Source of the DNA: Omphalotus guepiniiformis
Taxonomy: Eukaryota > Basidiomycota > Agaricomycetes > Agaricales > Omphalotaceae
Length of the DNA: 64,000 bases
Reading direction: 5' to 3'
NCBI GenBank assembly: GCA_028554645.1
Contig: JAQOOI010000079.1
Span: 310,001-374,000, forward strand
A program made the position numbers and the translations under genes. Under the pieces are notes generated by a model. It searched no databases and was not told the DNA's origin. It worked only from the letters and a program-made list of their open reading frames with translations. This document shows positions 12,427 to 44,712 of this stretch, piece after piece (the stretch's first letter is position 1; every line of letters begins with the position of its first letter).

Positions 12427-12499
12427 CTTTGCAAGTCAAAAAACACAGCAGTCAGTCAAAGTCATATTTGGTTTTATGCAGGCGGACAACACACAAAAT

Positions 12500-13230
12500 C
12501 ACGAGAAGTGTAACTACTTTGTTCCGTGAAACTTAGATTGTTAAATAGCACTTGAAATTCTGTTGAAACCGGTTGAAATATTCCTGGAACTTCTTCGATC
12601 TTTGCGGAATTGTGTGAGAATTGGTCCCCTCCACACTGGATGGATTTCAATGGAACTCACTCTAACTTACTGAAATCGTGAGGAACGTATCCTTGCTCTG
12701 CCGCACTTCTTTCAATGAAACTCGGTGATCACTGACTGAAATCGTTGAAATACAACTGAACTTGACGGCTAGCAAAACCTACTGAAATGTTACCTGAATC
12801 AACCACCACCGATTGTATGAAAACTTTGGTTATATGGGGGGAGATACACTGAAACAGGTAAATGTAAGGGGTGGATTTAACGACGTTCCTATGAAGATCT
12901 TTGGAGGAAAAGCAGGGGAATACAATGAAAAACTGAAAGATAAGGAGCGGAATTCATGACCTGCGTATCCAACTTGAAGAAAACAGGGGGTACACTGAAA
13001 AAAACACGGGGGGATACAATGAAATATTCAGATATAAGCACAGGCATTCATGACGTCCCTATGAAAACTTCGAGAATATTGGGGTTGCGGGGTACACTGA
13101 CTCGGAAACTCGGTAATGTAAGAAAAAGACCTCACGACGTTGCGATGAACACCTCAAGAATGGGACGGGGGTACACTGGAACAAAATGTAAGCTGTGAAA
13201 CCTGGGGGGATACACAACGAAGTACTTACC
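12500..13230 (+). repeat. Left-end GAAA/GGAA-rich repetitive zone
   Basis: Irregularly spaced TGAAA, GGAAC, GGAAT and TGAAAC words at intervals of about 10-25 bp, plus diverged longer units around a 'gggggatacaatgaaa / gggggtacactgaaa' block (12840-13210). No coding frame is supportable. Confidence 0.6.
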
Positions 13231-13231
13231 G

Positions 13232-13813
13232 TTACAAGGACGCAGCGCGAGACATTACTGGGCGGATCAAGTCTCTGACGACGTGCGCTGCCGAGCCTCT
13301 GAATTCAAAGAGCTCATTGTGCCTTCGGCGGCAGTGTGCGCAAACCTCCCGGGGCCGGCGTGTGCATATGTCGTCCAGCATCGCATGACAGATGTGTTCT
13401 GAAATGTGGTCAGTGACGGCGGGGTTGAAAAACGACGACGTGCCTGCACGAATGTAGTGGCGGGCGTGAACTGCGAACCACCACTTATGATTTTGCCCCC
13501 TACACTGCCTTGCCCACTCCCGTCTTCGCCGCCGAATGTTTGTTGTACGACCAACCTTGAACAGCTTCGTCCCGACAACGTGAAACACGTATAAAAAACC
13601 TGGGCGGTCGAACGGATACACCCGTTGACACGCTACGCGTACGGGCCTGCAATACATGTGGTTGATAAGAAAAACAAGTCGTCGGGATGGTCTCGCGACA
13701 AAGAGAGTTAAACGGAATGAGCGATGAAAGCAGTGCGTCGTGAATAAGTGGTGGGACGCTTCTACGACGCAATGAAAATAAATAAAGAGCGGCACAAACG
13801 GAGAGGCAGTCAA
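13232..13813 (-). CDS. GIY-YIG / T5orf172-like protein, 193 aa
   Basis: Single frame. Near residue 70 it has PGFLYVFHVVGTKLFKVGRT followed by a basic stretch (TNIRRRRREWARQC), the pattern of the T5orf172 (MUG113) branch of the GIY-YIG nuclease superfamily: a Y-x-F/Y strand, then K-x-G-R-T. Downstream it has EHICHAMLDDICTRRPRE then CAHCRRRHNELFEF, the C-x2-C / H-x-E-x-F segment seen in fungal members. The proteins are presumed DNA nucleases, often in or near mobile DNA. The N-terminal ~25 codons lie in a directly repeated segment (see 13740-14045), so the true start may be internal or in another exon. No stop or shift interrupts the domain. Confidence 0.65.
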   Translation of the reverse strand: MTASPFVPLFIYFHCVVEASHHLFTTHCFHRSFRLTLFVARPSRRLVFLINHMYCRPVRVACQRVYPFDRPGFLYVFHVVGTKLFKVGRTTNIRRRRREWARQCRGQNHKWWFAVHARHYIRAGTSSFFNPAVTDHISEHICHAMLDDICTRRPREVCAHCRRRHNELFEFRGSAAHVVRDLIRPVMSRAASL

Positions 13814-14045
13814 TTAAAAGAGGTGCTGAGGATGCGATTGAGGGAGGATGTTGAGGTACTCGCCACTCACCAACGGAGACTTGAAACCAACAAAGAAATG
13901 AAACTGAAGCTGTTTAGGGTGCCGTGAAGTGGTGGGACGGACTTCTAGGCGACGCGACGAAAAATTAAGAGCGGCGCAGATGGAGACGCGCTCAATTGAA
14001 AGATTTGCCGAGGACGCGATTGGGAGAGGATGGCGAGAATGCGAC
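13740..14045 (+). repeat. Direct repeat, two diverged copies about 187 bp apart
   Basis: 13740-13860 and 13925-14045 share 'agtggtgggacg', 'agagcggc.ca.a.ggaga', 'tcaattgaaag/aaaag' and 'gaggacgcgattg/gaggatgcgattg'. The first copy overlaps the start of the GIY-YIG-like frame. Confidence 0.65.
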
Positions 14046-14429
14046 CTATGCACTGGATTGAGCCCCGCTGAGGTAAAAAGTTCGATGCTTTTTCAAGAAA
14101 ACAACTACTTGAGTTACATAAAACTCAGAGCTGACCGAAGCTGAACGTGAACGGATTTATTTACCTTCGCACATTGTACAGTTAGGCACATTGTACATTT
14201 GGACGAGTTTGGAAATGTATCGCTCACTCACAACCTTTGTGAAACGGAGCTAGCAAACACCTAGAAGAGACTTTTGTCAGATGGATGACAACAAGCTTTC
14301 AGAAATAGAAATTAGCCACTCACGATGCCTTTACATAGCTTGACATAGAATAATAGGTAAAGTACATACTATATGACCTATAAATGATTGTAGCGAAGCG
14401 TTCGTCGGCCCTCGGTTGACATCGCAAGT

Positions 14430-15400
14430 GACTTTGGATTTGTAGTCAGATTCCTGCCGACACTCAGTTGTGGAACCGACAATTCCTGAGACGTGCAAAG
14501 CAACAGGGGTGTTCATGCGGGGCACAGTCAGGACCGACGATACCTGACAACGAAAACCCAGTGGAGAGAACACAATGGAACAGGGTGGGATTGAGGGGAA
14601 ACTCAGTTGGAACCGATAATAGCTGACACCCGCCCGCTGCATCGAAAACCCACTGGAGGGAACAGGATGGAACAGGATGGAACAGGGGGGAACCGAGGGG
14701 GAACCGAGGGGGAACTCAGTTGGAACCGACGGTTCCTGACACCAGCTGCAATGAAAATGCATCCTTGAAAACGCAATAGAACAGGGTGGAAATGAGGGGG
14801 AACCGAGGGGGAACTCAGTTGGAACCGACGATTCCTGACACCAGCTGCAATGAAAATGCATACTTGAAAACGCAATGGAACAGGGTGGAAATGAGGGGGA
14901 ACTCAGTTGGAACTGACAATTCCTGCCACCAGACCCAAGGGAAATCCACTGCTGAAATTGCAATGGAATATGGTGGAGATGTAGGAAATCCTTCATGCGG
15001 GAGCATCACCTAGATACATTGTTAACTTCAGCAGATGAAGGACGAAGATCATGTGGAAATCTCGCCAAACATCCGCATCTATACAACCTCGGCTGAAAAC
15101 CTCAATTTGAGCAGTCTTGCACTGAATTGCGGTTAACATGCATGGAACCCAAACACTCATGCAACCGGTTAGTCGACTTCGGTATCGTTGGTGAAACCAG
15201 GCGGAATTGTGTTGAGTTTTGCAAGTGGATAAGCGGCAGCGCCCCTGAAAAAAACACCTGGAACGAAACGGAATAGACCGAAATCACAATGACATCTTAC
15301 AAGTGAATAAGTGACAGTGCCACTGAAAAAACCTGGAATGAAGCGGAATGGATTGAAACTCAACATGAAATCCTACCCGGGACACACCGTCTGTGAGGTA
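14430..15400 (+). repeat. GGAAC/GAAA-rich tandem-like zone
   Basis: Diverged units of about 100-120 bp built from 'gggggaactcagttggaaccgac', 'attcctgacaccagctgca' and 'atgaaaatgcat.cttgaaaacgcaat'; the best copies are 14575-14930. Frames of up to 221 codons across it are a by-product of the repeats. Confidence 0.65.
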
Positions 15401-15596
15401 TGAATACATACAGTGCAGGGTGCGCGACGACGTTGACTGAAACATACAACATAGAGTTACTCTCGCCAACACATAGGGATAAAGAAAACATGAAAGAGAT
15501 TGAATTTTCGTTGCACAACATGACAATACGCCGATCTAAAAACACAAGTTCAGCCATACCATCCGGCCCCATTCGACCAATAAAAAGGGGCACCTA

Positions 15597-18500
15597 TTAC
15601 TCCACGTCGCTCCTTTCCTCTCCGGTAGACTCCTCTGACGAACTGCCATTCTCGTCCTCACTCCCTGGGTCCGACAGGGAATTACCGCTCAGAGTCGGGT
15701 CAACAAACGCTGGTCGCTCGCTGCCAGACGTAGGTCAGAACTCGTTCAGACCACTACGCGCCCAAGCCCACGTACCTATGCAGTTTCGGAAACCCTTCCT
15801 GCTCTTTGTTTCGGAACTCCAAAACGACATCAGCCAAACACTTCCCTTCAGGAATCACCCGCAAACTCTCAATTCCCGATGCCTCAAACCTCCCTTGACA
15901 TTGTTTCTCCAATGTCATGAACAACTGCTGCTGCTGCAAAGCATATGCCACCTGCCCTGGTGACATTCGTAAAGAACCTTCTTGTACATCCTTGGTCCAC
16001 TGTGTCCCGGCGAGTTCCTGTACGTGGTGACCAGCCCCCGTAGAGGGCTTCCACGTCGTTTGCTTTGATATATCACCCCACACTTGAGCCATTTTCTGGA
16101 ACGTCTTGATACACCTATGAAACTCGGCGTGTTTGATTTCGAGAGTCTCTCGCCACCGCTCGAACTCAGCTTCGTCCCTGAAGAATTTGACTCGGTCCTC
16201 TGGTTTCCAAGAATCAATCACCTCATCACCGAGTGCGAACAATCACTTACGCTCCCTCGCCCATTCTTCTGACTCAACATCGTTGGCAGTTACTTTCCAG
16301 ATGAAGCCATCAAGTATAGCCCCTGACATTTTGGAACCCTCCACGTGCGCGCCTTCGATTTTCCGCTTTTTCAGCGGGCGTCTGCCTTCGCTATTATCGT
16401 CGTCGTGGTCCGAGTTTCCCCGTGCAGGTGCTTATGCTCGACGTCAATCAACTCAGTCAGCAGCGAGTTTAGAGGTGACGCACCGGTACGGCGTGACATT
16501 TGGGTCCCAAAATGCCCTATAGCCTCTGTGTACAGTCAGCCCCTGCCTGACACCGCAGAGCAACAAGGTGCCCACCTCGACCTCCAACCCCTTGTCCCCT
16601 CCTCCTTTTCTCAGATTGAGCCATTGTAATGCCCCCGCCAGACCGACCCTGGAACCCTGGCCTCATTCGCCACAGACTACCATCAGCTCTGAGAGAGTCG
16701 CCCAAAGCACGTTTGACATGCGTTGGCTTTCTATACGTGTCTTCCACCGTCAGCTTTGGACAGGCGGTTGATTTTTCCTCGATCGCCCCCAGGGCCACCA
16801 ACGCGCTGCGGTGGCGGTTGTAGTCTTCCAATTGCTGCAATCTCACACGCTCGAACCGCTTGATTTCCTCCGTGCTCCTGGTGTTCTGCTCCTGACCTCT
16901 GTTGTGCACGTTCTTGTTATCAAAGATTGCCGATAACAGTCAGACGGTCGCCTGTAGTGCCAGGATGAGCGACCAGGCCCCTGCCTTTCGCAGCAATACC
17001 TCCCGCTCCGACACCTCCTCCATTCCTGAAGCAGCACGCTCCATCAACGGGAGATCTGAGGGGAGAAATAGCCTTTCCTCCTCAACATCTGTGACGGTCA
17101 ATGCTAACACTCTATCCCCCACATCCGGCATGATCACTCTCTGGCGCTCACGCCATCGGTCTATACGCCGCGACATTCGCTCTCGCATTTCTATCACTTG
17201 TTCTTCGGCATCCCTATCTGCTGCGCGTCCATGACCCTGCAGACTTCTGACTTTTCGGCGCAATGCTGCTCTGAACACACAATTAGCTCGTTGCAACCCC
17301 CTAGCAATAACTCACTGAGCATCCTCAATCTCCACACCTTCCCTCAAAAACCTCACCACCGCGGACTGTGTCGCTGACATGCCAGTCCCAAGCACACACG
17401 GTAAATCGGACTTCATCAACCGTTGAACCTCCCGACGCAATGTAGACGCTTTTCAGTATTGGTAGGATCAGGTCTCTGCCAGTAGCTATCACAGATACTG
17501 CACGTACACTCGGAGTGCTCAGTAGCATAGACTGAATGAACCACTCGTTTGTGTTTCCTGTCAAATCTTGGCGACCGATCCATGGCATTCCATTCCTCTA
17601 TCCTATCTTTATGAATGTCGTACAACGCCTGTAGATTGTTTCTCGTCTGGAAGTAACGTTTCTTCACGGTCTCCAGTTCCTTTTGCAATTGCAAACCTGA
17701 ATCTCCGCATTAGCATCGTCTCACCTCCGTTGACCGACATCAGGATGAACTCACTCATTCCCATGACTTTGCGAGTATTCCACGACAGAAACACCTGGAT
17801 AATTGCATCCTGCCGCTGCCCGTGGCTCATTTGACGAATTGACGGGCCCAGCAAATTGAGTTCGGGCCATACCAGCTCAGCAGTTTCGCCAGGAAAGTGC
17901 CCAATGGAATCTTTGTATGACGAGGAGAACAAATACATGCACATATCTAGGTGATTGCGCACATGTGCGGCCGGTATTGTAAACCGAAACGAATTCGTCT
18001 GATGGGCCAGATGCGGAAACCAACGCTTCATGCGCTCCACAACGTGGGCAGAGTAGGTGCAATTACTGTCATAGCTGAGCGGTTGATCTGGCACGGAACC
18101 CTTGTCAAACATTCGGAGTTCCAAAGCCTTCGCCAGTGCGAGATCGCTATTGGCGAATCTAGAGAGAGAGAATTTTCGGCTTGGCCTCGTGGGAACGACG
18201 GGGAAGGGAACGCACCTCTCGCCTCGCTGCATATCAACGGTGGAGTGGACGAAGATATGGTCACATTGAACGTTGATGACTCCTGTGATATCCATCCCTT
18301 TGAACTTAAGCCTATTTTGCTTTTCCATCGCCTTGATAAAACCACAGTTAGCCTTCTCCTGAACCAGTCCTTGTGAGTGCTGGCTACCCAAATTCATCGG
18401 CTCACATACCTCAGGACCTCGCCGTGGACCTGTTACACGGTCCATCTCCGCACCAGCCGTCGTCACCCCCTGATTTCCGGCCTTCTGTAGCTGTGGAACC

Positions 18501-19750
18501 TCTGCAAGGTACGCATTTTCTCGCGCAGCACTAGGGAAAACCGATCGCCCTTGGTAAAGCGAGATGTCTGTCGGATCATGGTTCTTACTATAGTGGTTGG
18601 CCTGAAAATTGCCATCTAGGGTGCGCCTGCAGGCATGTAGGTGGCTAAGAACTCATCAGCACCACTCCTGCCACCCGACATAACTTGGCCTGCGTACCGA
18701 AGTTCCACTGGCACACCAGCCCACCCTGGCTCCAAATTCACCCCTTCTTCCGGACATGTGGGACAATAGACGACCATGTTGCCTACCGGGCGGCGGGGAA
18801 AGTAGACATCAATTCCATGACCTTGCCCCAACCATTTATTGGCTCGCAGGTAGCTCCAGATGCGTGACACCAACAGGAATTTTGCATAAAATTCCTGTAT
18901 GACTCCAAGTCAGCCACGTAAAAACAAAAGAGAGTATGCACTCAACGGGAATCTCCTGGGGGTATGAGTGGTTTGTGAGCCCTGCCAGTGCTTTGCAGTA
19001 ATCGTATGCGGTGGCCTTCGAACACTCGCACAGCACCTGAAACTCTCGTAGAGCACGCAACGTGAAAGCTGTTCCTGGGTCAGTGAATGAACCCGGGAAT
19101 AGATTGGCTTCGAACAATTGCTCCCACTTTCGCGGTGGGCCGGCACACCCACAGAACTTGACTTTTGTACCGTGTACCCCATTGGTATCGACAACGGTCA
19201 GGAGCAGGCTTTGATGGGCCGCCAAGGGACAGGGATCCCCCCCATGACCTAAATGAACGGCCCAGGTCTCGTCCAAACGAGACAAATCATATCTGGTGAA
19301 GAAGGTGTCCTCCGGTCCCCAGAATTCGGCCCAATGGAAGGGGTTATGCTTGTGGGCCTGAAGGAAGCACCCTTTACAGAGCGGTCTCAACTGAAAGCAA
19401 TCCCTGCAGCGAGTGGTGCGCTCTCCTACACCGCAGTCGCACGCAGTGCCGATCCTAGGGTCTGCGGCCTTCTGCATGTACATGCACAAAATGAGCAGAA
19501 AATGAACTCCATATTGCTCCAAAAGTGTTGCTCTCTATGCACGCAATTCGTTAGCTGTTCCTTCACGACAATGACGACGTCAATTCACCCTTGTCTTGCC
19601 CTCTGTCTGGCCTTCGTTTTCACTGGCCTTCCTCTCGCCACTCTCAGGACCAGGCGTCTTAGACGACGTACTGGGAGTTGGTAGCACGTAACGCATCACC
19701 ATGGCTTTCTCAAGCTCACTCTGTGAGACCTGTCCGCGTCCTCGACCCAT
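15597..19750 (-). CDS. KDZ (Kyakuja-Dileera-Zisupton) transposase, multi-exon
   Basis: DDE-type DNA transposase of the KDZ group. On the minus strand a short N-terminal exon (MGRGRGQVSQSELEKAMVM, from 19750) is followed from 19471 by a CxC2-like cysteine cluster (CDCGVGERTTRCRDC, CKGCFLQAHKHNPFHWAEFW). Further exons carry FYAKFLLVSRIWSYLRANKW, then GNFQANHYSKNHDPTDISLY near 18610. The KDZ core follows: DITGVINVQCDHIFVHS, DSNCTYSAHVVERM, IPAAHVRNHLDMC and HFPGETAELVWPELNLLG, down to about 17800. C-terminal exons include EEWNAMDRSPRFDRKHKR and end in an acidic Ser-rich tail with a stop at 15597. The exon pieces I read are open, but not every junction was verified, so hidden lesions are possible. 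It probably mobilised the surrounding element. Confidence 0.85.
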
Positions 19751-20573
19751 CGTAGTACCCAATGTTGAGTCTGTGGGGTGTACCGTGTCGGTCGATGGTA
19801 GTTTTCTCCCAAGTGGAAAGATGAACCAGCCCGTACGATTCTCGAATCTTTCCCATAATGAGCAGTTCGTCCGCCCCGCCAGAAAGAATGCGCTTCATCT
19901 AGATCTTCGCGGCTCATAGTTCTTTGCCGGACTCATGAGTCGCTTATGTAGCCCCGGGTACAGTGCTGTGCTGTGTCAAAAATCCTGAAGGAGAGTGTCA
20001 AGCAGTTGCAAGAAAAACGCGAGAGACGGGTGCAGTCGGTTGCACCTGATCCGCCCTGACGACGGATCGATTTACCGGTCTGATCTGGAGAATTGTCCGG
20101 CTGCTCGTGGTCTGAGCGTGGGAAGTTGGAGTCTGGGTACTAAGTATGTAGTAATGTACCTTCATCTTTCTCGGAGTTTTTCGTCGGAGTCAACGACTAA
20201 GCTCCTTTCCACTAAATTTCGCTGAGTCATTCTTACACATGCATAGATAACACTCGAATTTCTTGGAGACTTAGCAGGAACATCTCCTTGCCGTGAAATG
20301 TCTTTATTTTAACATATTTATAAGTTATCGGCAGCATGTCCTAAGTATCAACGTTCCTAAGTGGCCCGAGGTGGTGCCTTGGAAGGAATACAAAATATAC
20401 TCATTGTTTGAGTGCAAGCAAGTCTCCAGAAGTGCAATAAGTTACAGCATATCAACGGCTGAACACGTAGAGGATCGATTCACCTTTGAATGCAGCAGCA
20501 CGTCATCGTTAATCAGAAGACTTTCAAAGGTAAGGATCTGCCATCGCTACTACACCGTGTTTGAGTATTGGGC
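19751..20573. other. Spacer upstream of the KDZ gene
   Basis: No gene recognised. A plus-strand frame at 20293-20706 overlaps the better-supported minus-strand gene at 20574-21130 and was not accepted. Confidence 0.4.
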
Positions 20574-21130
20574 TCACGATCCACAGCGGTGGAAAGACTC
20601 ACAATACTCCGCAACAAGGTTTCCACTGAGCTCTGTGGGGGTAGGGATGTCGAGCAACACCCGGAACGCAACAAAGCTATTCATAGTTCGTTCAAACATC
20701 CGGTAACGGATGTGGATGCGATCGAGGGCTTTAGCCAGGCGCAATTCCTCCACTGCTAGACAAAAGTCCACCCCGGAAGCGTCCAAAGTGCCAGGAGGCC
20801 TGTGGTCGATGCCTTCGAGGTTGACTAGCTGTGTGCTATTTGACGACAGGACCGCCCATCGTACGTTGAGTGAAATAACAGCAACAAAGAACTGCTCGCA
20901 GAGGAAAATTTGTTCGGGAAATCTTCGTTTGGTGTCAATTATGAAGTCCTAAGAAAGGGTTGGTCAGGATCCAAATTCAAGATTAGTAGGGTGTTTACCG
21001 CAGTTATGCCTAGAGTGCACAAATGAGAGAGTTCAGTCCGGTCAAGAGCGCCTGTGACAACAGCCACGACAAATTTTTCGCTTTTTTTCGCGACGTTCAC
21101 GACGTGTCCCTCGAAGGAGTCGGAAGACAT
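20574..21130 (-). CDS. Unknown protein, 2 exons, about 168 aa
   Basis: Exons 21130-20999 and 20948-20574 join in phase 0 across a 50-nt intron (GTAAAC ... CTTAG). The protein starts MSSDSFEGHVVNVAKKSEKF and continues through VVAVVTGALDRTELSHL, FPEQIFLCEQFFVAVISLNV and LAVEELRLAKALDRIHIRY. It looks globular, with no signal peptide or clear membrane helix, and I do not recognise the family. A GTGAGT donor near its 3' end (about 20614) means a further exon could replace the last dozen residues. It lies between the KDZ gene and the tandem array, on the same strand. Confidence 0.5.
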
Positions 21131-21534
21131 CACTGTGGGCGGCTATTGGGGCGAACCAGCGTAGTAGCGGCTCCTATGTATGCAAACAATGTATATGAAT
21201 AGTTTGCGGTGCCGGCGTCATTTGGCCTGGACCGAACCCCTGAACCGTCTATTGAGATTGAATCGAGGAAGAGAGAGTCAGAGGGGACGTACCAGTATAA
21301 TTGGGGTTATGTGCGAACTGAAGTACCGACATACACCGAATCAATACGGAGCATCATTGTAAAACCATCAGTCCAGGCGAGATAGTGGCACATGGACCGG
21401 AATAAAGACGAACCGCTCTCAAGGCTCAGTCTGACCTAGTCTGACCCAAGGAAGACGTTGACAACAAATGCTGATGGGGTTATAATGAGCAAAAAAAAAC
21501 CTGAGGCTAATAACTGGCTAATACAGTCCTCAAG

Positions 21535-22185
21535 CTAATACATTTGATACTGATATTCAAGTTCTCTATTGTCTCGTGCGCCCCGAAGTTCGTTCAACCC
21601 GGCGTGCACAGCCCAGTGTATACACTCCTCGAACCAGCGCACCACATCTGTCATGGTCTTCAAGATTGTCGTCACTTCGCGCCATGTCTCTGCAGATGGA
21701 CCCATTGATTCAACTTTCGTAGCAGCTCTCGAAACCTTCATTTGAAGTCGGAGTAATGTATGATGGGGTCTGATGAGATACTGCAGCACAAGACGTTTGC
21801 GATTTTCAGGATGTACTGAGCACCTGTCAATCAGCGCTTGAACAGAGCGATCGAGATGTACAGCAGGGTTGTCTTCGATTTTTGAGTCCCATCGTGATTG
21901 GACGCATCGTATATAGCTGAGCTTTTGCTTGATCAAGCGGCTGCAATTAAAGCGTTGAGCTAATCGGAGAGTGGCGTTTGGAGGGAGGTATGTACAGACC
22001 TAGGATCAGCACCTCGCGTCTCAATCCAGTTTTTACGTTTTTCTGTACGCCTATAAGATATATTATCGGCCCTTGAAGTACTTGAATCGATACAAGACTC
22101 ACAATCTTTGTGCCTCGAGTGCATCATCAAGGTCTTCTGCCGCACGTCTTTCCCGCCTGTGGGCATTGATAGCCTCGCGGTTCCT
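21535..22185 (-). CDS. Unknown helical protein, 3' exons (partial model)
   Basis: Two exons join in frame. One begins near 22185 after TTTCAG and encodes NREAINAHRRERRAAEDLDD and ALEAQR. After a roughly 170-nt intron the other encodes RLIKQKLSYIRCVQSRWDSK and continues to a stop at 21535. The composition is charged and helical (HPENRKRLVLQYLIRPHHTL, TWREVTTILKTMTDVVRWFE). A 5' exon must exist but would lie in or beyond the 177-bp tandem array; I could not place it. The family is not recognised. Confidence 0.5.
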
Positions 22186-22332
22186 GAAATTGAAAACAAA
22201 GAGCAGTGAGCAAAAACATTCAGAGGCAAGGAAATTATTCACGCTGCGTAGTGTTTTTGGGAGTACGACCGTTGCGCTTCACGTTTCTGAGCTGCTGTAG
22301 TATATAGTTTACGTCGCGGCATTCAGAATTTA

Positions 22333-23210: not shown

Positions 23211-23337
23211 CTATCGTTGACAAGTGATTCTCAAGAACAATCCCGAAGCGCGGGGCCTCTTTGGCAATCGTGGAACATAGGCTGGAACAACTGATACATT
23301 CATTGCGCATTAAATGTAATGTATAATCCCAATACAT

Positions 23338-25535: not shown

Positions 25536-25689
25536 GCTTCATCACTCTGTTTGAAAGATGGGGGTGAGTGTGGCAAGGAGGCTAGGGGAAGACTTCTGCA
25601 TCAACAAAACTTTGGCAATGTCACGAGATTCAGATTTATCATCATCCATCCCACGGAGGCCCAAGCAAGGTTTCTGCCGAGCGTGGCCC

Positions 25690-26090: not shown

Positions 26091-26479
26091 TTTTCTCCGA
26101 TAGAAAAACGCCAAGCCTCGCTACATACGAGAAATCTCAGGAAATCTCCCCAGAGGCTCCAGCTAGCTCCAGCCGTTTTACTAAGCAATTATGAGGTTGA
26201 CTGCCCGTTGAGCTTCTATTTGTGGTATGCCCCAGAAGCCTTTGGAGCCTGTTGGAGCAAGAAAGTTTTCTAGCGATACGGAATCTTTTCTACACAAAGC
26301 CACTTGGCGACGTGTGGCTCATAAGCTCTAATGAACCTTTTTGAATATACATAGATTTCTCGCAGCTCGATGATCAACAAAACATAGTGGGGGGGGGGAA
26401 TACTTTGTCTCAAGGAAAAACAGACGGCATCTGATGATCTGATGTGTCGAGCTTAACATTGAAACAAATGGCACGCGTG

Positions 26480-29990: not shown

Positions 29991-30054
29991 GGTGATAACA
30001 CGAGGGTCTTCATCACGTGAGCCTCCAAGCTCCCTTATAACAGTGACACGACAC

Positions 30055-33495: not shown

Positions 33496-35618
33496 ATGTC
33501 GACTATCACTCATCGTAGTGTGGCCGGTGCTACCCTCCCGACCTTTGCCAATAGAACTCACCTGCATCGTTTATCCACTGGCGTAAAAGCTCTTCATGCG
33601 CTCAAAGGGGCACTTGATCCTCACTCTCAGTGGTATATCACCACACCTAATGCCAGTTTCATTCCTTCTCCACCAATGGGCTCTGCTCGACCTTTATATC
33701 GACGGTCTGATGCTCGGTACGGTGCATGTGATCCCGTATGCTGGCCACAACCCTATAACGCGGACTACCCCTTCCTTCCTTGCATCGCCCGGTCGCCAGC
33801 TGCATCGACGTGGTATTCTCAATGGGATGTTATGTGGATCAATGTCGATGAATATGACGTCGAGTACTCCTCCGCGCGCCCAGGTGCTGGAGGTGTATTG
33901 AAGAGATCTATTTTAGACCGTCTTAGGGAAGCTGTGGATGAGGTGCTTGGGAGCAGGATGACCGGACTTTCGGTTAGCGCAACTGGATGGGAATACACCA
34001 GGCATGACCGAGGAATTGATCCAAATTTTAGATGTATGTCTCAGACATATAGGCTCAACCCCCTCTTCTCTCCGAGATCTCCAGCGCGGTTTAGTTGAGG
34101 TCCAACGAGCGTGGCTGACCCTGTCTGCTATGATTGACTACGTTGTCGATTTTCAAGAGCCTGCAGACTTTGACCGAAAAGAGGTCGTATCGTCGCGGAT
34201 GGGCTGCTTTGTTTGGGAGGAGAAAACCGCCTCCAGGTTGATGGGGAGGGGCCTACCTGTCTGGGTGGTACACGTGTGCAGCCAAACCCGACACTATGAC
34301 GCTGAGGAGATGGTGACGATTGTGCCCCCGACCGCTTGTCACGAGCCGGCGATGCCTGGTTATCCAATCCTGATCACCTCCCATGCTGGGTCGAGCCAAG
34401 AACTCGCTGCAATACGTGTCGCTGCTATTGATTGTTTCCCTGAGCCCAACCCCTTTGAAAGCGGGCCGTCGATGACCTCCGTGTCGTACGCGGCCAGGCC
34501 ATCAACGTCCTCTATCTCATACGCGGCGGCAGGCACCGCAAGTGTGATGGCGTCATCCGGGTGTGTTCGGAGAGAGCGTTACAAAGCTGGCAGTGTGGTG
34601 GCGGCCCCGAATCGTGTCAGACAAAGAGGCAGGCCCATGCCGAGAAATCGTACACCCTCATGTGAGTCTTTGCCCACTCGATCTCAAATCAGAGTACATG
34701 TTTCTGAGCCTGCTACTAGCACTATCAGGATGGAGAGATCCCTTTGAAGACCCACCACTGAACGACCCCTTTGCCCCACCCACCATCCCGGCTTGGAGGG
34801 ACGCCAATCGACGGATTTGCCGGGCAGGGGTGACTCCGGGACGCAAAGCGTTTATTGTCGCTGACCCTGGTCTCTTTTTTGGTTCGCGGGATCAGAGTCG
34901 GAGATGGGGACAGTTTCACCAGTGGGAACATTTTCGCCCCGCGTGGTTGAAGTATTGCCGTCAGGTCAAGGTGAAGGAGCTTTGCACAGATGAGTGGCGA
35001 AAGATCATCAGTATGCCATTTATTAATCCAGTGGAAGGTGGTGTGTTCTCCCAAGCAAGAGGCAAGAAGGTAGATACTGCGGAGACACTGGCTTTTGTGG
35101 AAGAAATCTGGCGGGATTTCGGCTGGTCAGGCAGTGTGCGAAAGGTCTGCAACGACGCGTTTGACCCTTACCGAGCGCAAGTTCTAGTGCATGAGCTTCG
35201 AATGATCAATTTTCGATGGGAGCTGGAAAAGGTAGATCGAGGCTTAGATACCACGCGTCCCAGGAGAAGCAAACAGTTCGGCTGTGTGAGCTTAGAAGAT
35301 CAGGAGGAGTCTCACCACCGGGCCCGCCAAGAGTTGATCTCCCGATGCATCCCAGGGGGCTCGATGTTTGACCTGGTACTTACCTCAAACGCCGGCCTAG
35401 GGGCAGAGGTCTGGCAGGATCGATACACAGCGCTGAGGTCGTTCTGGCGTCTTATGGACTCGTGGCCGGCAGAGAAGGATACATTTTGGAGGCTTGGGGT
35501 CGATGCCGAGCTATGCGAGACCCAGGGAGAGAAGTGGGAGCGAATACTGGTGGAGTTTTACGTCCAGTCTGCATTCGGTTTCCTGCATAGGCCTCCAACC
35601 CTGCCGTGCCGTGTGTAA
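33496..35618 (+). CDS. Conserved Agaricomycete protein of unknown function, multi-exon
   Basis: Three overlapping frames form one gene. The first exon (from 33496, MSTITHRSVAGATLP) contains RRSDARYGACDPVCWPQPYN and TWYSQWDVMWINVDEYDVEY. The next frame carries SLRDLQRGLVEVQRAWLTLS, MIDYVVDF and RMGCFVWEEKTASRLMGRGL with PVWVVH. An intron at 34662-34719 (GTGAGT ... CTACTAG) joins it in frame to the third part: SGWRDPFEDPPLNDPFAPP, HFRPAWLKYCRQVKVKELCT, EWRKIISMPFINP, and a C-terminal domain rich in Arg and Trp. The order 'LQRG-W-L / RMG-F / G-PVW' is one I associate with a multicopy mushroom protein family, possibly transposon cargo; no function is known to me. The junction near 34010 is unresolved. 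Confidence 0.6.
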
Positions 35619-36327
35619 AACTTTCTTGTTTTCGTTGTCGTCGTGTTTTCGATCATGCTGTGATACCCTGTGTGTTAACGTCCAATGTAATTGTACACTC
35701 GTTCTGCCGTCCTCATGCGGGCCTTAGCTCAATAACACCACACCCGACCAATCTCAATACTTTTTCACACGCTTTTGGGTGGGCGGGTGGTTTAGAGATG
35801 GACTATGGCTTTCAGGCTGAGACAATTTCTAAGGACTGGTTCGAAAGCGAAAGCGGGAGACTACTATGCCATAAGGAGTGAGACCAATGGTTTAGGGTTA
35901 CTCTAGACTTAGGTCGTCAAATTACCCCCCACGTACTGTAATGACAAAGCTCTTGCCATATTCAGAGTGGCCTTTCAAGACTAGAGGTTGACGGAGGCAA
36001 CAACAACCTTGCCGCGTAATTTTCTGCAAAGTATATGACGACAACAAATTGTAGTTCTTCAAAGTAAAGTTCAGACGTTAGCATGATCAAAAATTGCATG
36101 AACAACATCGGCCGAAAAGCTACCAGCATATCCCGAAGTTTGACAAAGTCTAGCGAGGTCACGGTTGTAATAAAGCCTAAGGGTGTAAGAGTGTCTGACG
36201 TGTGTATTTGGTTGGTACATTATGGGTTTGGAGAACCTCGCTTGGCAGCAAAGTGATGCTCGTGTTCATTCCGAGCTATAGAGTGCGACACCTAAAGCTA
36301 CAAGAACATAATGAGACAGGTCATCCT

Positions 36328-37426
36328 TCAAATTGAAAGATCGATGTATGAAGTGGACCGAGTGGAATCGTGAACTTCAAAACAATCCAAGACCTCACGG
36401 CTACTTGGGTCCTCATCTGAAGAGAGATGAGAATGTCAAGCGCCAGTTGAACGGAAAACAGCTTACAGTACATTCGTCGGCGGCGAAGTCCTGATCTGTC
36501 AGGGGCAGACTCCTTGCGCAGACGTTTTGATGCACCAGAGGGACCGGGCGCGGCTTCACTCTCAGATGAAGGAGGGGCGCGTATCGCTTTAGGGATCTGC
36601 GTCGCGTAGGGGCTTATCGCAGGGTCTGCATGAAGGGGGCTATCAGTCTGGATACTTTGCGACTGGAAAGTGCGTCTGGTGACCACGGGCGCAGGCTGAC
36701 CCCAACCTTGAAGAACCGGATGGGGCGAGGCGGCTTGAGTGTAAAGAACTCGTTGGATGCGTGGCCATTGATGGAATGTCCACATCTCCAACACGGTGAC
36801 ACAGTGGCCTGCAATGGCGTGCACCACAGCGGACGCGCACCCTGGGTGGGGGAGTGGGCCGATTGGAACAGCGCTCAAGAGATTTGGGCTGGGGCGATGG
36901 GTGAGAGACCATGAGGCAGAAAAGGCACGTTCGTAGAGGACAACGAGAGTCCCTATAACAATCAATTGCCCGAAATTGGGGCCCGTCGCAGCAAACACCT
37001 GCTGGGAGCAAGTACGGCCGGTGTGCGAATATTCCACACACTGAAAATGTCGACGTCAGATCAAGCGCCAAAATTATTGGATTGACTCACTCTGGCAACG
37101 GTGAGACCCAAATGGCGCATGTCGCCTCGCCCGTAATTAGTCCATGTATTCAAGACGCAGTCTTCGGTCTCTGGCAACACCTGCGGTGAGGAGCAAATTC
37201 CATCAATGGATCTGACCAACAGGTTTGTTAGCAGGATGCCCATGGTAGCGTTGCCAGTATTCGGGATCCCCCCTAGAGTCTGCAGGCAGTGTCTTGCGGA
37301 CACCTCTAATGCTGGCAATGTAAAAGTGGTCTCCGGGGAATCCTCAGTCCAGGGCACCGTGATGGACATCTCTGGCGAGTGAGCAGTCGTGCCGGCAGAC
37401 ATTGCGTTGCACAGAGCTGGGACCAT
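36328..37426 (-). CDS. Unknown multi-exon protein
   Basis: Exon 1 from 37426 (MVPALCNAMSAGTTAHSPEM) ends at VAR before GTGAGTC; exon 2 starts CVEYSHTGRTCSQQVF (phase 0, acceptor TTTTCAG). A third exon follows the intron beginning GTAAGC near 36467 and ends ... DLSI at a stop at 36328-36330. The frame holds GICSSPQVLPETEDCVLNTW, FAATGPNFGQLIVIGTLVVL and a Lys/Arg-rich region (SKRLRKESAPDRSGLRRRRM) that could be a nuclear localisation signal. No family is recognised. The central hydrophobic stretch (LIVIGTLVVLYERAFSASW) could be one membrane helix. Confidence 0.5.
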
Positions 37427-37814
37427 CGGCTTTCAAAAATGCAAGTTGATAATGGCGCACAAAGCGGCTGAGTATGCAGTTGATTCAATGGCTGAACTGG
37501 TTCAGATGTGAAGTGGTTCAGACCTGTTTACAATGCAACGTTGACCTGCGTGCATCAGGAGGAGGATACGCGTGCCCATTCATTGACCGATTCGCGCGAG
37601 TGTCCAGGGTTCAGATCTGCAGAAGGTGTGAACATCGCAGTTGAGTGCGGGACCACAATAAAATAATGGATGACTTTCCATAAGAATTTAGGCCTTAGGT
37701 CCAATTTGCCTGGCACTAAACTTCGAGTAAAATATTTGAAATATATCTAGCTCCGAGTTATGTGCGAAATCATCCCCGTAATGCGACAAGCAAATATAGA
37801 AACACTAGGCGGAA

Positions 37815-38070
37815 TATAGTCACGTGTACCCGGGATCTACGTCCGTATTCAGCAGGTTTTCCTCAGGCTCGCTTACAGCAAACATAAATCAAATGCACCA
37901 GAAAATGCTTTAGCAAGGGGGGGTCCAGAGGCCTTTCCCAAATCTCATCGTTGGGACACTGTTAATATTTGGTTTTTCGGTTTTATTGCACTAACCGGGC
38001 TCGGCTCGTCTCGGCTAAGCATATACTGTAGAAGGTAAAATCTAGTGCAGATTGGTAAACTCTTACGTAG
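37815..38070 (+). repeat. Dispersed repeat, copy 2
   Basis: Shorter, more diverged copy of 25690-26090, same orientation; a G-run (gcaaggggggg) interrupts it near 37915. Confidence 0.75.
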
Positions 38071-38141
38071 GGCCGGGCAATTGAATTCATGAGGTTACAC
38101 GGCGTGGTCTGGCGTGGTCCTGCCATGGACGCCCGACAATA

Positions 38142-38350
38142 AATAAAGAGGATGAAATTGCTATTGTATATCAGAGAAGATATCAGAAAACATCGTAGGA
38201 CCATTGGGCAAAGTCAGGAAAGACTTCGGGAACAATCGTTAGCGCGCGACAGTAAAGAGGATGAAATTGCTATTGTATATCAGAGAAGATATCAGAAAGC
38301 ATCGTAGGACCATTGGGCAAAGTCAGGTAAGACTTTGGGAACAATCGTTA
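38142..38350. repeat. 109-bp tandem duplication
   Basis: 'taaagaggatgaaattgcta' starts both copies, 109 bp apart, and they match through 'ggaacaatcgttagc' with a few substitutions. Confidence 0.85.
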
Positions 38351-38823
38351 GCCCGTTGTTCGGATGAACGGATGAAAGATGTGGCGGTGCCTTTGCCGGC
38401 CGATCGCGTGGGCAGAAACTCTGACCAAACAACGATGGTCCTTGAGCAGCCTTGAGCCCTAACCCCCATCATTGAGCCCAAACTCCCCATCATTCCCCTG
38501 CTGACCTATGGTCCCAGCAGGCGGGTCGCTCTGAAGTCGACTGACGGAATAGCTATGGGGTAGGGTGGTATACTTCCAGGCGTTTGCTTGTAGAAATCGT
38601 TATTAATATAGTCGCGACACTCTTGCTGTGGTGCTGGTGCGCAATGAACAGTTTGCAAAAGACATCTCTACACATATTTGTGTGCGAGTGGCATATTACG
38701 CCGCTGATTATGTCTAGTACAGCAATGGATCTACATAAGAAGGACGGAACATAAGGTCACCAATGAAGGTAACATTGAATAGCGTTTTTTTGGGGGTAGG
38801 AGACAGGTAGGAGACAGCAGGCA

Positions 38824-39890
38824 CTAAAGAAAATTCTTGTCCAGATCCCACCCTGGGGTGTTGGTGACCCCGGCCAGACGAAGAAATAAGAGAGAGCCAT
38901 CACGCGCAGGTATCAACGTTGCCCAATGGACAGTCTGCCATTCCACCGCGCCTTTCCTGGAGACCTCAAACCGATGTAATCCTTGCTCAATATCATGACC
39001 ACCGAGCAGCAGTTTGTTGTCTTGGAGGGAGACCCGCTGTCCTGGGTTACTAACCAGCAAGCGCAAGGCGTCAACGCCATCCTGGAGCACGGGTAAGCGT
39101 CAAATTTGGGGGCGGAGGATGGGCAACAAACCTTCATATACAGCATCAGGGTGACTTTGTTGGCAGTGGCCAAGTCTGACGGCCCTGGTTCCTCGTCGCT
39201 CCCTCTGGTGATCGGACGGCCATAAAGGCGACGACCGAACGCTCTCCGAGTCGAAGGTGTTGGAGTAGACGCTGAGGTTGCCGGAGACAAAGGTAGTACA
39301 CGACCACGACGCGGGGTGAAAGAGTCCAGAGTCGGAGGGTCACGTCGGCTGCCTTTGGAAGTGAGACTTTCGCGAAAACCCAGCAGCTCACGAATGTTAG
39401 AGGTGTTCAAGAGCTGGGCTCCCCAGTCTCCCAGTGAGAGATCTGAGACATGTTCGCGAACTTTATAAGGCAATCCCTGGCGTTGAGACTACACATAGCC
39501 AGGTCAGTAGATGGTCTTAAGTGACGTGATCGGTGGATTACTGACATATATAAAATACCGACCGCAGTCTGGAAGGTATCGATCACCCGTATCAATGAGA
39601 AGGCGTGCGCGCGAAGGGTGTGTGGGCAGCGGAAAGTATGATCTTAGAGCGCAGGCAAGAGCTGCGTTGACAGCAGCGAGCATTTGCTTTGCGGTGCCAT
39701 CGAACCGCAACGCGACGTCACCGTATCGCTGCACGTATATGTCGCGATGCATAGTGAAGCTTGCTGCACAAGTGATGGAGGAAGAACGAAACAAGGTATA
39801 CTGCAGGTACGTTTCTGCTGGTACGTTCACATTTTCAAAGTCATAAACTGTCAGAACGTATGACGATGATTGCAACAGGCAGGCACTCAA
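38824..39890 (-). CDS. Unknown multi-exon protein
   Basis: Likely order on the minus strand: MHRDIYVQRYGDVALRFDGT (ATG at 39752, or an exon start above it) with AKQMLAAVNAALACALRSYF and RYLPDCGRYFIY; an intron; VREHVSDLSLGDWGAQLLNT, NIRELLGFRESLTSKGSRRD and a Ser/Thr/Pro/Arg-rich linker; then ANKVTLMLYMK joined across a roughly 50-nt intron (GTTTGT ... CTCCAG) to DGVDALRLLVSNPGQRVSLQ, HRFEVSRKGAVEWQTVHWAT and a stop at 38824. The final domain looks globular. The family is not recognised, and the first junction is approximate. Confidence 0.5.
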
Positions 39891-40095
39891 GATGAAGCGC
39901 TAGAAGATGAAGCGCTAGCTCCGCCGAACACAATTACGCGAGAAGGAACCAATCGTGCGGAAAATCTGGCAGAGTGGACCATGAAAAGTTTGAAATCGAA
40001 TAGCGATTCAACCGAAGTTAGCAGATGGTGTACCGGCCGGCGCAGACACTAGCGTAGCGGGACAGGCGGTGTACAGATTAGATGGCAGGGAGGAT

Positions 40096-40540
40096 GTACG
40101 GGTTAGATGGAAGGGAGGATAGGAAGATGGAAGGGCAATTGGAAATGGGATGGGTTGAAACATGGTGAGATATTGATGAACTGGTTGTACTGATTCCGAT
40201 TTAGAGTCGTCTACAGGGTCGCGAAAACGATGGGCCCGTTGCAGAGCTGCTATCGAGGGTCAAGAACGAGATCTCGGCTTGAAGAGCATGCGGTAGGATG
40301 AGTTGGGTGACATGTACATGTACGGGTTAGATGGGAAGATAGGAAGATGGAACGGTAATTGGAAAAGGGATGAGTTGAAACAGGTTGAAACATGGTGAGA
40401 TTCTGATGAACTGGTTGTACTGATTCCGATTTAGAGTCGTCTACAGGGTCGCGAAAACAATGGGCCCGTTGCAGAGCTGCTATCGAGAGTCAAGAACGAG
40501 ATCTCGGCTTGAAGAGCATGCGGTAGGATGAGTTGGGGGC
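40096..40540. repeat. About 225-bp tandem duplication
   Basis: 'gtacgggttagatgg' starts at 40096 and 40320. 'tgattccgatttagagtcgt' through 'cggtaggatgagttggg' is nearly identical in both copies, with small indels before it (offset 224 then 230). Confidence 0.85.
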
Positions 40541-40719
40541 ATGCGGTGCTAGAGGGCCCAGCGGCGAAATTTTACGGGTGAACTTTGCATCCAAGCGGGG
40601 TTTCAGGTAGTTTCAGTGAGTATTCGCTGGTTGGAACCTACTACACTGACCGAGCCTGTGAAAACTCTGGTCCTTTCACTGAAAACCTTGCCACAACAAC
40701 AATCGCAGCAAGCCGCGGG

Positions 40720-43511
40720 ATGTCTGCCCCTTCATCTTCTGCGAGGGATGGTCCGTCTGGTCCTGGGTACGTCGCGCAAGTGATTTGATATGCAATAGTA
40801 ATAATATGCACCTCATACATAGTACAACGGGAACGGCACGCAATGTGGACGAGGATCCATTGTCTGACGAGGAGGAGGATCCTAAACACAAGGAGATCCT
40901 TTCACCCGCCCAACACGCTGCAGTGAAGAAGCTCTTTCCGTCTTGGTGCAAGATTTTGGACGACCACGACATGATCAATAGGCCGCGGAACAAGAAGTAT
41001 CCTCTGGCAGTGCAGCAGTGGAGAGCAGATGCGGTCGGACGCCTGCTAAAGGATGACCCAGCGTTTCAGGGTGTTACAGGCCCAAAGTTCGTGAAGGTAT
41101 TGTCCCAAGGTGCCAAGATTGCGTGCTACCAGACCGCTGACTTCTCACTCATACATAGGCTGTGGGGCAAGCCTTCAATAGATATGTACATCGAGGTTAT
41201 GAGGCGACTCATAAGGACAAAGGTTCTGGGCCGGCGCGTACACCGTTGGAGGACGGTGAGGGGGGGTCTTTGTCTGACCCTCGAAAGGCCGCGTCTGTGT
41301 TTTTTTTTTTTGCGTTTGCAGGCAAATTAACGGGTCGACAGCTCTTCCTGAGCGAGAACAAGGATGCAGTGAAGATAAAGATGAAAGAGCTTCGCCAGGG
41401 AGCTGGCCATGCCGGTGAGGTCACGGACACTCAGCTCGACGGGGCCATGGTCGGCGCAGCGACGATGCGTGGGAGCAACGTGGGCTGGTACCAGAAAGCA
41501 TCATCCGAGCTGTGGAAAAACGCGGACCAAGAGCTTTACGAGAGTCGGGCTGAAAATGCTGTGAAGGATACGGAGAGGTAAGTGGAACACTGGTCGTGAA
41601 ATTCAAGGTACCAACTAAAGACTATGTAGTAACGTGAACAAGTTTTTAAGAGGGGCGCTTCACACATTGAGCGCAGTGCGGGATTCCGGACAGCTGGGAA
41701 AGGTGGGCTTCCAATTGGTGATGGCCTACGAGAGTGTGCAGTCTCCAACTGGATTTACGGCAATACGGTGAGTCGAAATGTTCGTATGCGTTCTCCAAAA
41801 AACTCACATGGGCATAAGATTGGGAATTGATCCTCCGGATACTCCCGCCGGCGCAAGCTTCGAAGACCACACTTCGTTTTTGGACGATTACGGAGGTTGG
41901 GTCGGCCGAATTGTTCGTGGTGAGGATGATATGAATTCGACCCCTGAAACGCGGAAGTATCTAATGTTTGCTGTGTAGAGGCCACAGCACAGAAGATAGC
42001 AATACCACGAAATGAGGCAGGGATACCTGTCTTTCCTGTTTTGGACTTCACAAAGGCGAGAATGGAGGAACATCGATCCGCATACAGCAAGTTTTTTGAG
42101 GCAATATGGGGTGAGTCACGTAGTCGCGATCGCTGAGGCCCAGGTCACGATTTGCCTTACAGACCACGCCTGGCCGAGAGACGGTGAGATATCGACGATC
42201 CCATGGGGGGCGATAGTCGCTGATCCCTCTGGATATTACGATACCTCGACTTTCCTTTTCCCCGCCTCACTGCGTTCACCGATTCTCCTGTCTGATAACG
42301 AGGTGGTAGCGATAAACGCGTACCTCAGCGCAACGTCCAATTCTTGGTCGACCCTGCCTTTCGTGTTCTATGAAAAGGGGATATTGGAAGACAAGTGGAA
42401 GCGCTGGGCCCAGGAAGACCGTGAGGTTGAGGAAGAAGGAGAGGAGGACATTGACAATGCACATGTCGATTCCGAGGTCCCGGTACGCGATGTGGGAGAA
42501 GGTCTACCTGGAGGCGTTGTGGAACTGCAGCGAAACGAGGGCGACGGGGACGTGTTGCAACAGGCGACACAGGAGGGAAACGCTGTCTGGGCCGTGCGAC
42601 CCCACGCATCGAAGGATGGACGCACTGCGCTGAGTGCGGTGGGTTTGAATGACGCTGCCAGTCCAGGTGTACCCTCTCTATCAGACATTACCGAGGAGGC
42701 GGGTGAGGAGGGTGTGGTGGCACCAGTAGTGCCGATTGTGCCAGAGGAGGGGGTCGATTCAAGGTCCCAAAGCAGCGAGACGGATGCCATCGAGATATCG
42801 AAGGATGGACGCACTGCGCCGACTTTGAGTGACGCTGCCAGTCCAGGTGTATCCCCTCTATCAGGCGTTACCGAGGAGGCGGGTGAGGAGGGTGTGGTGG
42901 CACCAGTACTGCCGATTGTGTCAGAGGAGCGGGTCAACTCAGGGTTCCAAAGCAGCGAGACAGATGCCATGGAGGCATCTCCCCAACGGACGCCTGCTAC
43001 CGGGGGCGGCACTGCAGTGCCATCGTCTTCGACGGTGCTGGTCAATGACGCATCAACTTCTGATGCACGTGTTCACAGCGAAGTGGAAGTGCTTGCATTG
43101 CCTGGAGAGACTAGGGGGAGGGTGCGGACGAGAGGACGTCGGGAAAGGGAAAGGCCACGAGGAGCAGGGCCAAAGCATAAAGGAGTTAAGGAGTCAAGAG
43201 CTCTGGTCACTCGACGAACACGCCAGTCAGAAGATGCGGGTGGGATGGATGGGGGTCCATCCCCACAGATGTCCGAAACAGGTGGAGGGTGGATGGACGA
43301 CCCAGATTTCTTCCACAAGCCGCCGCCCCCGAATTGGAGAGGTTATGTCATACCAACCGAGCAGGATAGCTTCATGGTGTACTCCGAACAGCTGGAGCAG
43401 TGGGTAGAAGAAGACAAGAAATCAAAACGTCGGGTGCTGCACAGGGACGAGTATGGGAACATAACGAAGTTGGGAGATATGCCTCCGAAGAAAAAGGCGA
43501 AAACGAAGTAG
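40720..43511 (+). CDS. Conserved mushroom protein of unknown function, multi-exon
   Basis: Starts MSAPSSSARDGPSGPG at 40720. An intron (GTACGT ... CATACATAG) joins in frame to TTGTARNVDEDPLSDEEEDP and ILSPAQHAAVKKLFPSWCKI. Later exons carry GQAFNRYVHRGYEATHKDKG, GKLTGRQLFLSENKDAVKIK, NVGWYQKASSELWKNADQEL, and from about 42100 IPWGAIVADPSGYYDTSTFL. The last exon has a low-complexity linker containing two copies of a ~60-residue repeat (GRTA ... DAASPGV, EEAGEEGVVAP, QSSETDA), and ends NWRGYVIPTEQDSF, HRDEYGNITKLGDMPPKKKA with a basic, nuclear-localisation-like tail. I associate this layout with a multicopy Agaricomycete family of unknown role. A T-run (about 41300-41310) suggests a further small intron there. 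Confidence 0.6.
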
Positions 43512-43514
43512 ATT

Positions 43515-44700
43515 CACATTTCCGAATCACATTCCGCGGTTGTTTTCAGGACACCCCCTTCTTTACTCATATATTTCCTTGCAGAGTTTTCACTGTGTTT
43601 CATTGTCAATGTCAAGAGTTTTCCATTTTTATCCCTGTATTTCCACTGGTGCGTCACCATTTCTCTGTTTCCAGGTGTTGTTCATCTGTTTCCTTGCGCA
43701 GTTTTCACCGTGTGTCCTATTATGGTTGTGCTCTTTCCATCGTAATTCTCACATTTCCACTGGTGCGTCATTGCTCTTACTGCAAAAATATGGCGTGGCG
43801 GATTCCAAGAAATTTCCATTATGTTTTCTTTAGGTGTCAACAATATGATTTCCATTCATTTTTGGTAGTGATTCCACAGTTTCCAGGCTTTCGTGACACT
43901 AATTTCCACCGTAATTCCCAGTTAGTTTCCGTTAACCTCTTAACTTGATATCTGCCTCAGATTTCCATTCTGTCCCAGTGAGTCCACCACAATTCCTCAG
44001 TTCTGTCTGATTCATATGTTGCTTTCCACCGACTAATTTCCACCGTAATTTCCAGTTAGTTTCCGTTAACTTGATATCTGCCTCAGATTTCCCACTGTAA
44101 ATCACCAGAAATGTTGGCCACTGGCTTGTTGGCAGAATTCCGGGATCTTCCACTTTGTTTTCAGCCTTATACCCAGATGAACCGCCACTTTTTCGTTATT
44201 CGGCTTGCCCTTCGATTCCGCACCATTTCCTTTTCTTTTCCGCTGCGTTTCAATCAATTTCAGTATACGTGATTTGTTTCTTCACAAGTTCCACCTGCCA
44301 TCATTGGAAAACTGCTCTGAACATTGTGTTTGAAAATTCCGTAAAACTGCCCTGAACATTGTGTTGAAAATTCCGGAAAACTGCCCTGAACATTGTGTTG
44401 AAAATTCCGGAAAACTGCCCTGAACATTGTGTTGAAAATTCCGGAAAACTACCCTGAACATTGTGTTGAGACTGCACTGAACATTGTTTTGAAAATTCCG
44501 CTCAAGTGCCCGTTGAAATCTTCACCGCACGTTCACCAAAATTTCCCTACATGTTTCTCACCCCCCCGAAATCGTGCAATTAATTCCACTGTTGTTTCCT
44601 GCTGTTTCACTCGGTTTCACCTCTTTTTCAGTGGCGTGCGGTTCACTTGCTTCGGTAATTCCGCTTCACAGGTCACAACCGACTTTTCCAAGAAAACATC
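43515..44700 (-). repeat. Right-end GAAA/GGAA-rich repetitive zone (inverted relative to left)
   Basis: On the plus strand TTTCCA, TTTCAC, ATTCC and GTTTCC words recur every 10-25 bp, i.e. the reverse complement of the words at 12500-15400. 44310-44490 is a short tandem of about 34 bp ('aaaactgccctgaacattgt' + 'gttgaaaattccgg'), roughly four copies. 'tgaaaccg' occurs in both ends when each is read inward. Confidence 0.65.
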
Positions 44701-44712
44701 TAGTTAAGTTAC

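Follow-up and report, generated by a model that had tools for sequence, protein, structure and literature searches.

The interrupted synthase gene and the borders of the insert

Two parts of one sesquiterpene synthase gene of Omphalotus guepiniiformis are separated by about 32 kb of other DNA, and the question raised by this locus is what that DNA is and by what means it arrived. The stretch analysed, here called the window, comprises 64,000 nucleotides and corresponds to C78:310001-374000 of a 42.5 Mb host genome in 80 contigs; other contigs are named C7, C19 and so on. Both synthase parts are located on the minus strand, are collinear and match one solved protein, AcCop4 (8gr5), which bears out a preliminary description of the window in which they had been read as one gene with its parts in the right order. 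The 5' part (44722..44995) matched AcCop4 residues 7-73 at 44732-44995 (E 1e-15), and the 3' part (11429..12495), made up of several exons, matched residues 135-222 at 11928-12200 (E 1e-23). Matches to Terpene_syn_C_2 (PF19086) were found at 11928-12200(-) and 11441-11821(-). The reading frame, together with the next GT, would place the insertion about one base before the end of synthase exon 1. No empty allele was found in the genome, where the synthase exon adjoining the break has a single DNA match, namely itself. The outer flanks had been regarded as belonging to one gene array, and the 426 tblastx matches between the left and the right flank agree with a related array on both sides. This array of orphan genes extends over window positions 3781-11165 and 46083-58474. 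A Copia-type polyprotein frame of 1465 aa with RVT_2, rve and gag_pre-integrs is present at 5523-9920 (-), and a tRNA search of the window found none.

In a genome search with both ends of the insert, the identity of copies was found to begin at window position 12503 and to cease at 44714. The complete element delimited by these edges, which are common to copies on other contigs, is 32,212 bp long (12503..44714). The preliminary description had recognized the insert correctly and had put its borders at 12427 and 44712, with an error of 76 bp on the left and of 2 bp on the right. The left end of the element reads GAGAAGTGTAACT... and the right end ...AGTTAAGTTACAG (5'->3'), with the termini GA..AG. 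The target-site duplication AAATCAC is present on the left (12496..12502) and on the right (44715..44721). A duplication of 8 bp or of another length had been anticipated; 8 bp fits a small derivative on C20, described below, and is ruled out by C78 and C19. Terminal inverted repeats had been considered as well and are absent: none of 18 bp or more was found at the element termini, and the end-to-end score was equalled in 471 of 2000 shuffles.

Further copies and derivatives

Other genomic copies with the same ends, as the preliminary description had envisaged, were found on five contigs. Two are complete (C7, 32,540 bp; C19, 32,543 bp), like the 32,212 bp copy on C78, and three are partial copies truncated by contig ends (C34, C53 and C44). 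Left ends of the 32-kb unit occur on five contigs and right ends on four; the C34 copy has the left end only (flank GGTCCGA) and the C44 copy the right end only (flank ACATTGT). Five distinct left flanks, together with the unmatched right flank of C44, suggest at least six insertion sites. The three full copies hold the same content, and the unit has therefore moved as a whole.

The flanking 7-mers are paired in C78 (AAATCAC/AAATCAC), in C19 (TTAGTTT/TTAGTTT) and in the C20 derivative (AAACCTC/AAACCTC). Those of C7 do not pair (ATCCACA on the left, CTTTGAT on the right), so that some joins may be assembly chimeras. CTTTGAT is also the left 7-mer of the C53 copy, and C7 is for this reason read as an assembly chimera or as a product of recombination between copies. 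Noisy sequence was present near the broken contig ends of C34, C53 and C44, and an apparent mosaic left half at C44 (81% identity) was attributed to it. The unpaired flanks and the noise are what could be cited for an assembly artefact at the window itself, in which repeats had been misjoined between the two synthase parts. Such an artefact is scarcely credible, given that at C78 an identical 7-bp duplication stands on either side, next to parts of a single gene in collinear order, and that C19 independently has matched flanks.

A search of the genome with the end patterns returned eight left-end sites, five belonging to the 32-kb unit and the others on C16, on C20 and at C78:1525626. Twelve right-end-like sites were returned, of which four belong to the unit, one is on C20, two are on C62 and five are copies of an internal motif. 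The reversed-pattern control gave zero matches. The site on C20 (C20:239938-240014) is a 77-bp derivative in which both element ends are kept within the 7-bp duplication, and it thereby bounds the sequence needed at the element ends. At least one of the two sites on C62 (C62:294739-294807 and 292086-292116) is apparently another small derivative, and a clean duplication was not seen there. The internal motif (14089..14119, +) resembles the right terminus at 26 of 31 bases, is present in five copies and sits 1.6 kb from the left end of the element; the left 1.6 kb, with its T5orf172 gene, may once have been a separate small element.

At C16:185910-208628 the left end of the element is found 98% alike over 283 bp. 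Further inward lie a TET homologue, at 10.8 kb and with its relative orientation reversed, and, at 22 kb, a match to the T5orf172 region. Only these 283 bp are common to C16 and the window element in the 10 kb compared, and C16 possibly carries another large element that shares the left end.

The KDZ transposase

Every one of the 48 open reading frames that fall entirely within the insert and reach 120 aa or more was scanned against Pfam (E up to 0.1 or up to 0.01). The accepted matches were T5orf172/MUG113, KDZ, CxC2, Tet_JBP below its cut-off and Pkinase below its cut-off. Sub-threshold matches to CheW, 2OG-FeII_Oxy_3, CTP_transf_like, MS_N and MBOAT_2 were set aside, as were ten Pfam families on the frame of a 177-bp repeat, where INT1_R3 and Arabino_trans_N exceeded their cut-offs with no single stretch passing. 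Gene models are predictions fitted to C78 without transcripts and were then carried over to C7 and C19.

The KDZ transposase claimed in the preliminary description was recovered, with a CxC2 cysteine cluster, as a 10-exon model of 1176 aa (15597..19750, -). KDZ (PF18758, E 2.7e-37) and CxC2 (PF18803, E 7.6e-27) both scored above the Pfam cut-offs, and CxC1 below. Seven KDZ relatives were collected, the best being a Lentinula raphanica protein with 38% identity; relatives of the element proteins occur in Lentinula, Stygiomarasmius, Dendrothele, Marasmius, Suillus, Rhodocollybia and Gymnopus. In an alignment of the catalytic core with the seven relatives, the aspartate of DGNF and the last glutamate of GETAE were invariant in all eight proteins, and the aspartate of SYD was present in the window protein and in six of the seven relatives. 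These two aspartates and the glutamate are presumably the catalytic acidic triad of the window transposase. The model is open and identical across the three full copies, and no other recombinase was detected by Pfam among the 48 frames.

The defined ends, the target duplication and the near-identical further copies agree with the proposal, made in the preliminary description, of one giant KDZ mobile unit. We hold with considerable confidence that 12503-44714 is one complete multicopy DNA element, inserted in the sesquiterpene synthase gene with a 7-bp duplication and likely moved by its own KDZ transposase.

Proteins A and B recur near the transposase

Two large genes on the plus strand, gene A (33496..35618, a 669-aa model that is frameshifted in C78) and gene B (40806..43511, a 788-aa model), encode proteins that match no Pfam family above the cut-off. 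A relative of protein B was not found among 7,993 scored candidates drawn from 5.8 billion proteins, and the predicted structure of a protein A relative had a mean pLDDT of 34.5 (4 sequences). Read from the first ATG, the frame of gene A is 200 aa long in C78 versus 416 aa in C7, C19 and C44.

The genome searches score the best candidates only, so that the numbers of A, B, KDZ and TET loci given here are lower bounds. Outside the element, homologues of B were found at at least nine loci, and homologues of both A and KDZ lay within 40 kb in all nine, at distances of 4.2-26.9 kb to A and 7.9-28.8 kb to KDZ. The nine loci were grouped as five lineages (C36/C49/C79; C42/C78:729k/C16:504k; C38; C41; C72). 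The order on C36 is KDZ, A, B as in the window element, but with A inverted. C36, C49 and C79 are 98-99.7% identical up to ...GGTTAAAATTTAC, 1.5 kb past the B match, and then diverge; they are copies of one sister element, the right end of which is its own and unlike that of the window element. Thirteen A loci were counted, ten of them with KDZ within 15 kb; for the remaining three (C59, C12 and C46), no KDZ locus on the contig was among those counted. A-like matches on C24, C26 and C37 (28-35% identity), short pieces on C40, C71 and C69, weaker KDZ matches and the copies of the element itself were left out of the A, KDZ and B counts.

None of the at least 105 TET matches listed lay within the nine B loci, no kinase-like match was found there, and a search of the same loci for T5orf172, at the DNA level only, gave no match. 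Because homologues of A and KDZ accompany the other B loci in five lineages, A and B, with KDZ, resemble a core to which TET, T5orf172 and the kinase-like gene seem to have been added. The preliminary description had named a nuclease, a DNA-modification gene and an effector-like gene as cargo, which agrees with the three apparent additions; the two large unassigned genes appear to be more core than cargo. A distant family, at C24:7501-29517 and C37:7648-29668, speaks against a strict core: it has A-like (28-35%), TET-like and kinase-like matches and no KDZ or B match, the TET matches lying 11 kb and the kinase-like matches 20 kb beyond the A matches, with equal spacing on both contigs. TET and kinase-like matches were also seen near contig ends on C58 (435635-444750) and C62 (7829-16942). 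The TET-like matches on C24, C37, C58 and C62 are 33% identical and contain stops, and the distance from TET to the kinase-like match is 8.4 kb in all four places.

The association of A and B with KDZ can be read in a second way, namely that the unit is moved by an unrecognised enzyme, A or B, and that the KDZ gene is a passenger or a mere helper. Both proteins recur near KDZ without a recognised family, the lack of scored relatives leaves no activity assignable to B, and A occurs without a KDZ match at C59, C12 and C46 and, more distantly, on C24, C26 and C37. This reading is nevertheless improbable. Duplications of 7 bp without inverted repeats are the product of the Kyakuja KDZ elements of Laccaria, the KDZ frame is intact in every full copy while that of A is shifted in C78, and ten of the thirteen counted A loci have a KDZ homologue close by. 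Movement by the KDZ transposase of the element is the reading retained here.

Additional genes and nested sequences

A T5orf172 nuclease-like gene had been reported in the insert and was found as an open frame at 13232..13813 (-), with a match to PF10544 above the cut-off (E 9.9e-9); we take it to be akin to GIY-YIG nucleases. The TET/JBP-type dioxygenase gene, likewise reported, is represented by a 531-aa model (23338..25060, -) with a Tet_JBP match of E 1.1e-4, below the curated cut-off; its frame reads HID, and the HxE by which the PE type is known does not occur in it. In Kyakuja the TET/JBP enzyme is of AG type (HxD), a type to which the window enzyme could be assigned only tentatively. 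Close to a predicted exon start of this gene, a 28-bp unit occurs in tandem duplicate in C78 and singly in the five other copies. TET/JBP-like sequences are strongly expanded in the genome, with at least 105 matches to one query.

A kinase-like gene (30055..32613, +; 760-aa model) has a Pkinase match of E 0.0012, at 18.7 bits against a cut-off of 31.7, and relatives elsewhere in the genome. It had been described as Crinkler-like, a description that was not confirmed: residues 1-136 of the model gave no Pfam match to a Crinkler header domain at E up to 10, and the Pkinase match is sub-threshold. By eye, a PD...EVK pattern like that of restriction-type nucleases can be made out in the protein; fusions of a nuclease with a kinase are reportedly known among Crinklers, and none of the searches recovered one here. 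No acceptable PDB match was obtained for the TET, kinase-like and T5orf172 frames. When the models were carried to C7 and C19, those of KDZ, the kinase-like gene and T5orf172 were open, those of TET and A contained stops in both copies, and that of B contained stops in C7 and none in C19, with length differences in a T run.

Other predictions in the insert comprise an open frame with no function assigned (21535..21999, -), a small gene of 177 aa with a weak model (26480..27084, -) and weaker models at 36321-37426 and 38824-39752. Besides the transposase gene, the element has about eight predicted genes. The region 21575-22459 has a counterpart of 70% identity at C79:469228-470115, in the vicinity of a TET homologue. 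The tandem array at 22333..23204 has a 177-bp unit in 4.9 copies and is open in one frame, with a 59-residue unit.

Later insertions into the element had also been suggested, and at least one is present, a small nested repeat at 28720..29467 that recurs at 97% identity on C59 and C8. At about 26081-26333 and 35980-36256 there are short stretches also found elsewhere in the genome. A segment of 907 bp (32395..33301) is shared with C65 at 97-98% identity; at C65:1593906-1606789 the homologue is split by about 12 kb containing two T5orf172-like stretches of opposite orientation. C65 was considered as a source of captured DNA on account of the shared sequence and these two stretches, and was rejected because no clear element ends were seen.

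These repeats, the segment common to C65 and the right-end-like site inside the element would fit an ordinary, smaller KDZ-TET element that was enlarged by nested insertions, its extra genes being junk of no use to element or host. The lack of a kinase-like match at the nine B loci and the broken B model in C7 point the same way. Growth of this kind is nevertheless rather unlikely as an account of the whole: near KDZ, homologues of A and B are met again in five other lineages, the models of the kinase-like gene and of T5orf172 have open frames in all three full copies, and the unit, having the same content in each of these copies, moved whole.

Divergence of the copies and decay of the window copy

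Between C7 and C19 there is not one substitution in 32.5 kb, and the two are set apart by ten short gaps (13 bases). Against C7, the C78 copy has 32 substitutions and nine gaps, two of which measure 126 and 230 bp, and against C19 it also has 32 substitutions; single-base differences between copies may be sequencing errors. If the C7 base is regarded as ancestral, the 32 changes in C78 include 25 of the type C>T or G>A. Of these 25 transitions, 21 fall in CpG, versus 22.6% of C/G bases by composition (binomial 1e-10). Such CpG transitions are the mark expected of 5-methylcytosine deamination. In view of these transitions and of the frameshift in gene A, the window copy is decaying and is likely dying; copies without those changes exist.

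Proposed mechanism

The KDZ transposase would recognise the two non-identical termini, for which the ends kept in the 77-bp C20 derivative would suffice, excise the element and join it to a 7-bp staggered target. Proteins A and B may assist the transposase in this reaction. The TET/JBP enzyme would oxidise 5-methylcytosine and so delay silencing. The nuclease-like gene and the kinase-like gene would have joined later, as cargo, with functions, if any, presumed from their sequences.

With exact ends and a natural 77-bp mini-derivative, a complete multicopy 32-kb KDZ element makes transposition by a little-studied enzyme family directly testable. It also brings to light two uncharacterised proteins, A and B, whose homologues are repeatedly found near KDZ genes. 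Since one genome holds copies that show CpG decay and copies that do not, self-protection by a transposon-borne TET/JBP enzyme can also be put to the test.

Comparison with known elements

The closest likeness is to Kyakuja. In the part of Kojima (2025, PMC12730594) consulted here, two Laccaria families have 7-bp duplications, no inverted repeats and CA..TG termini, and such TET enzymes are suggested to counter silencing. Compared with that part of the account, the window element is alike in its KDZ transposase, its encoded TET/JBP enzyme, its 7-bp duplication and its lack of terminal inverted repeats; it differs in its termini (GA..AG) and in its further genes A, B, T5orf172 and kinase-like. 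The duplication and the absence of inverted repeats being common and the termini not, the element is filed as a KDZ element resembling Kyakuja, which is not proof that it is Kyakuja.

The Cryptococcus neoformans elements KDZ1, KDZ2 and KDZ3 are, in the sections consulted of their description (PMC12810828), about 9-11 kb long, with inverted repeats of 139-241 bp and duplications of 4-8 bp. Like the window element, they encode a KDZ transposase together with a cysteine cluster, which there is CxC1, are present in several full-length copies and have inserted into a gene, whereas the window element has 32 kb, no inverted repeats and a 7-bp duplication. Among the related elements for which published sizes were found in the sources as consulted, the window element is about three times longer. 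For Pleurotus, the excerpt at hand gives every intact KDZ gene as preceded by CxC2, as is the case here. Zisupton has an 8-bp duplication and inverted repeats, and the window element has neither. Among the literature matches listed there was no KDZ element of such size or gene set; one may be described elsewhere.

Starships are giant elements of Pezizomycotina, reported also in Tremella in the part consulted of PMC13066641. As far as that part goes, they are likewise giant gene-carrying mobile units of fungi and have a tyrosine-recombinase captain, for which no counterpart was found among the 48 frames of at least 120 aa in the window element. As a tentative and somewhat doubtful generalisation, mushroom-forming fungi may possess a class of giant, gene-carrying transposons peculiar to them, in which a KDZ DDE transposase does the work of the Starship tyrosine recombinase. 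Its signature would be a three-gene core of KDZ, A and B, loaded with TET/JBP, nuclease and kinase-effector genes, and TET would shield young copies from the CpG-methylation decay seen in the window copy. The element thus suggests a basidiomycete route for the movement of whole genes, on a scale comparable to that of the smaller Starships.
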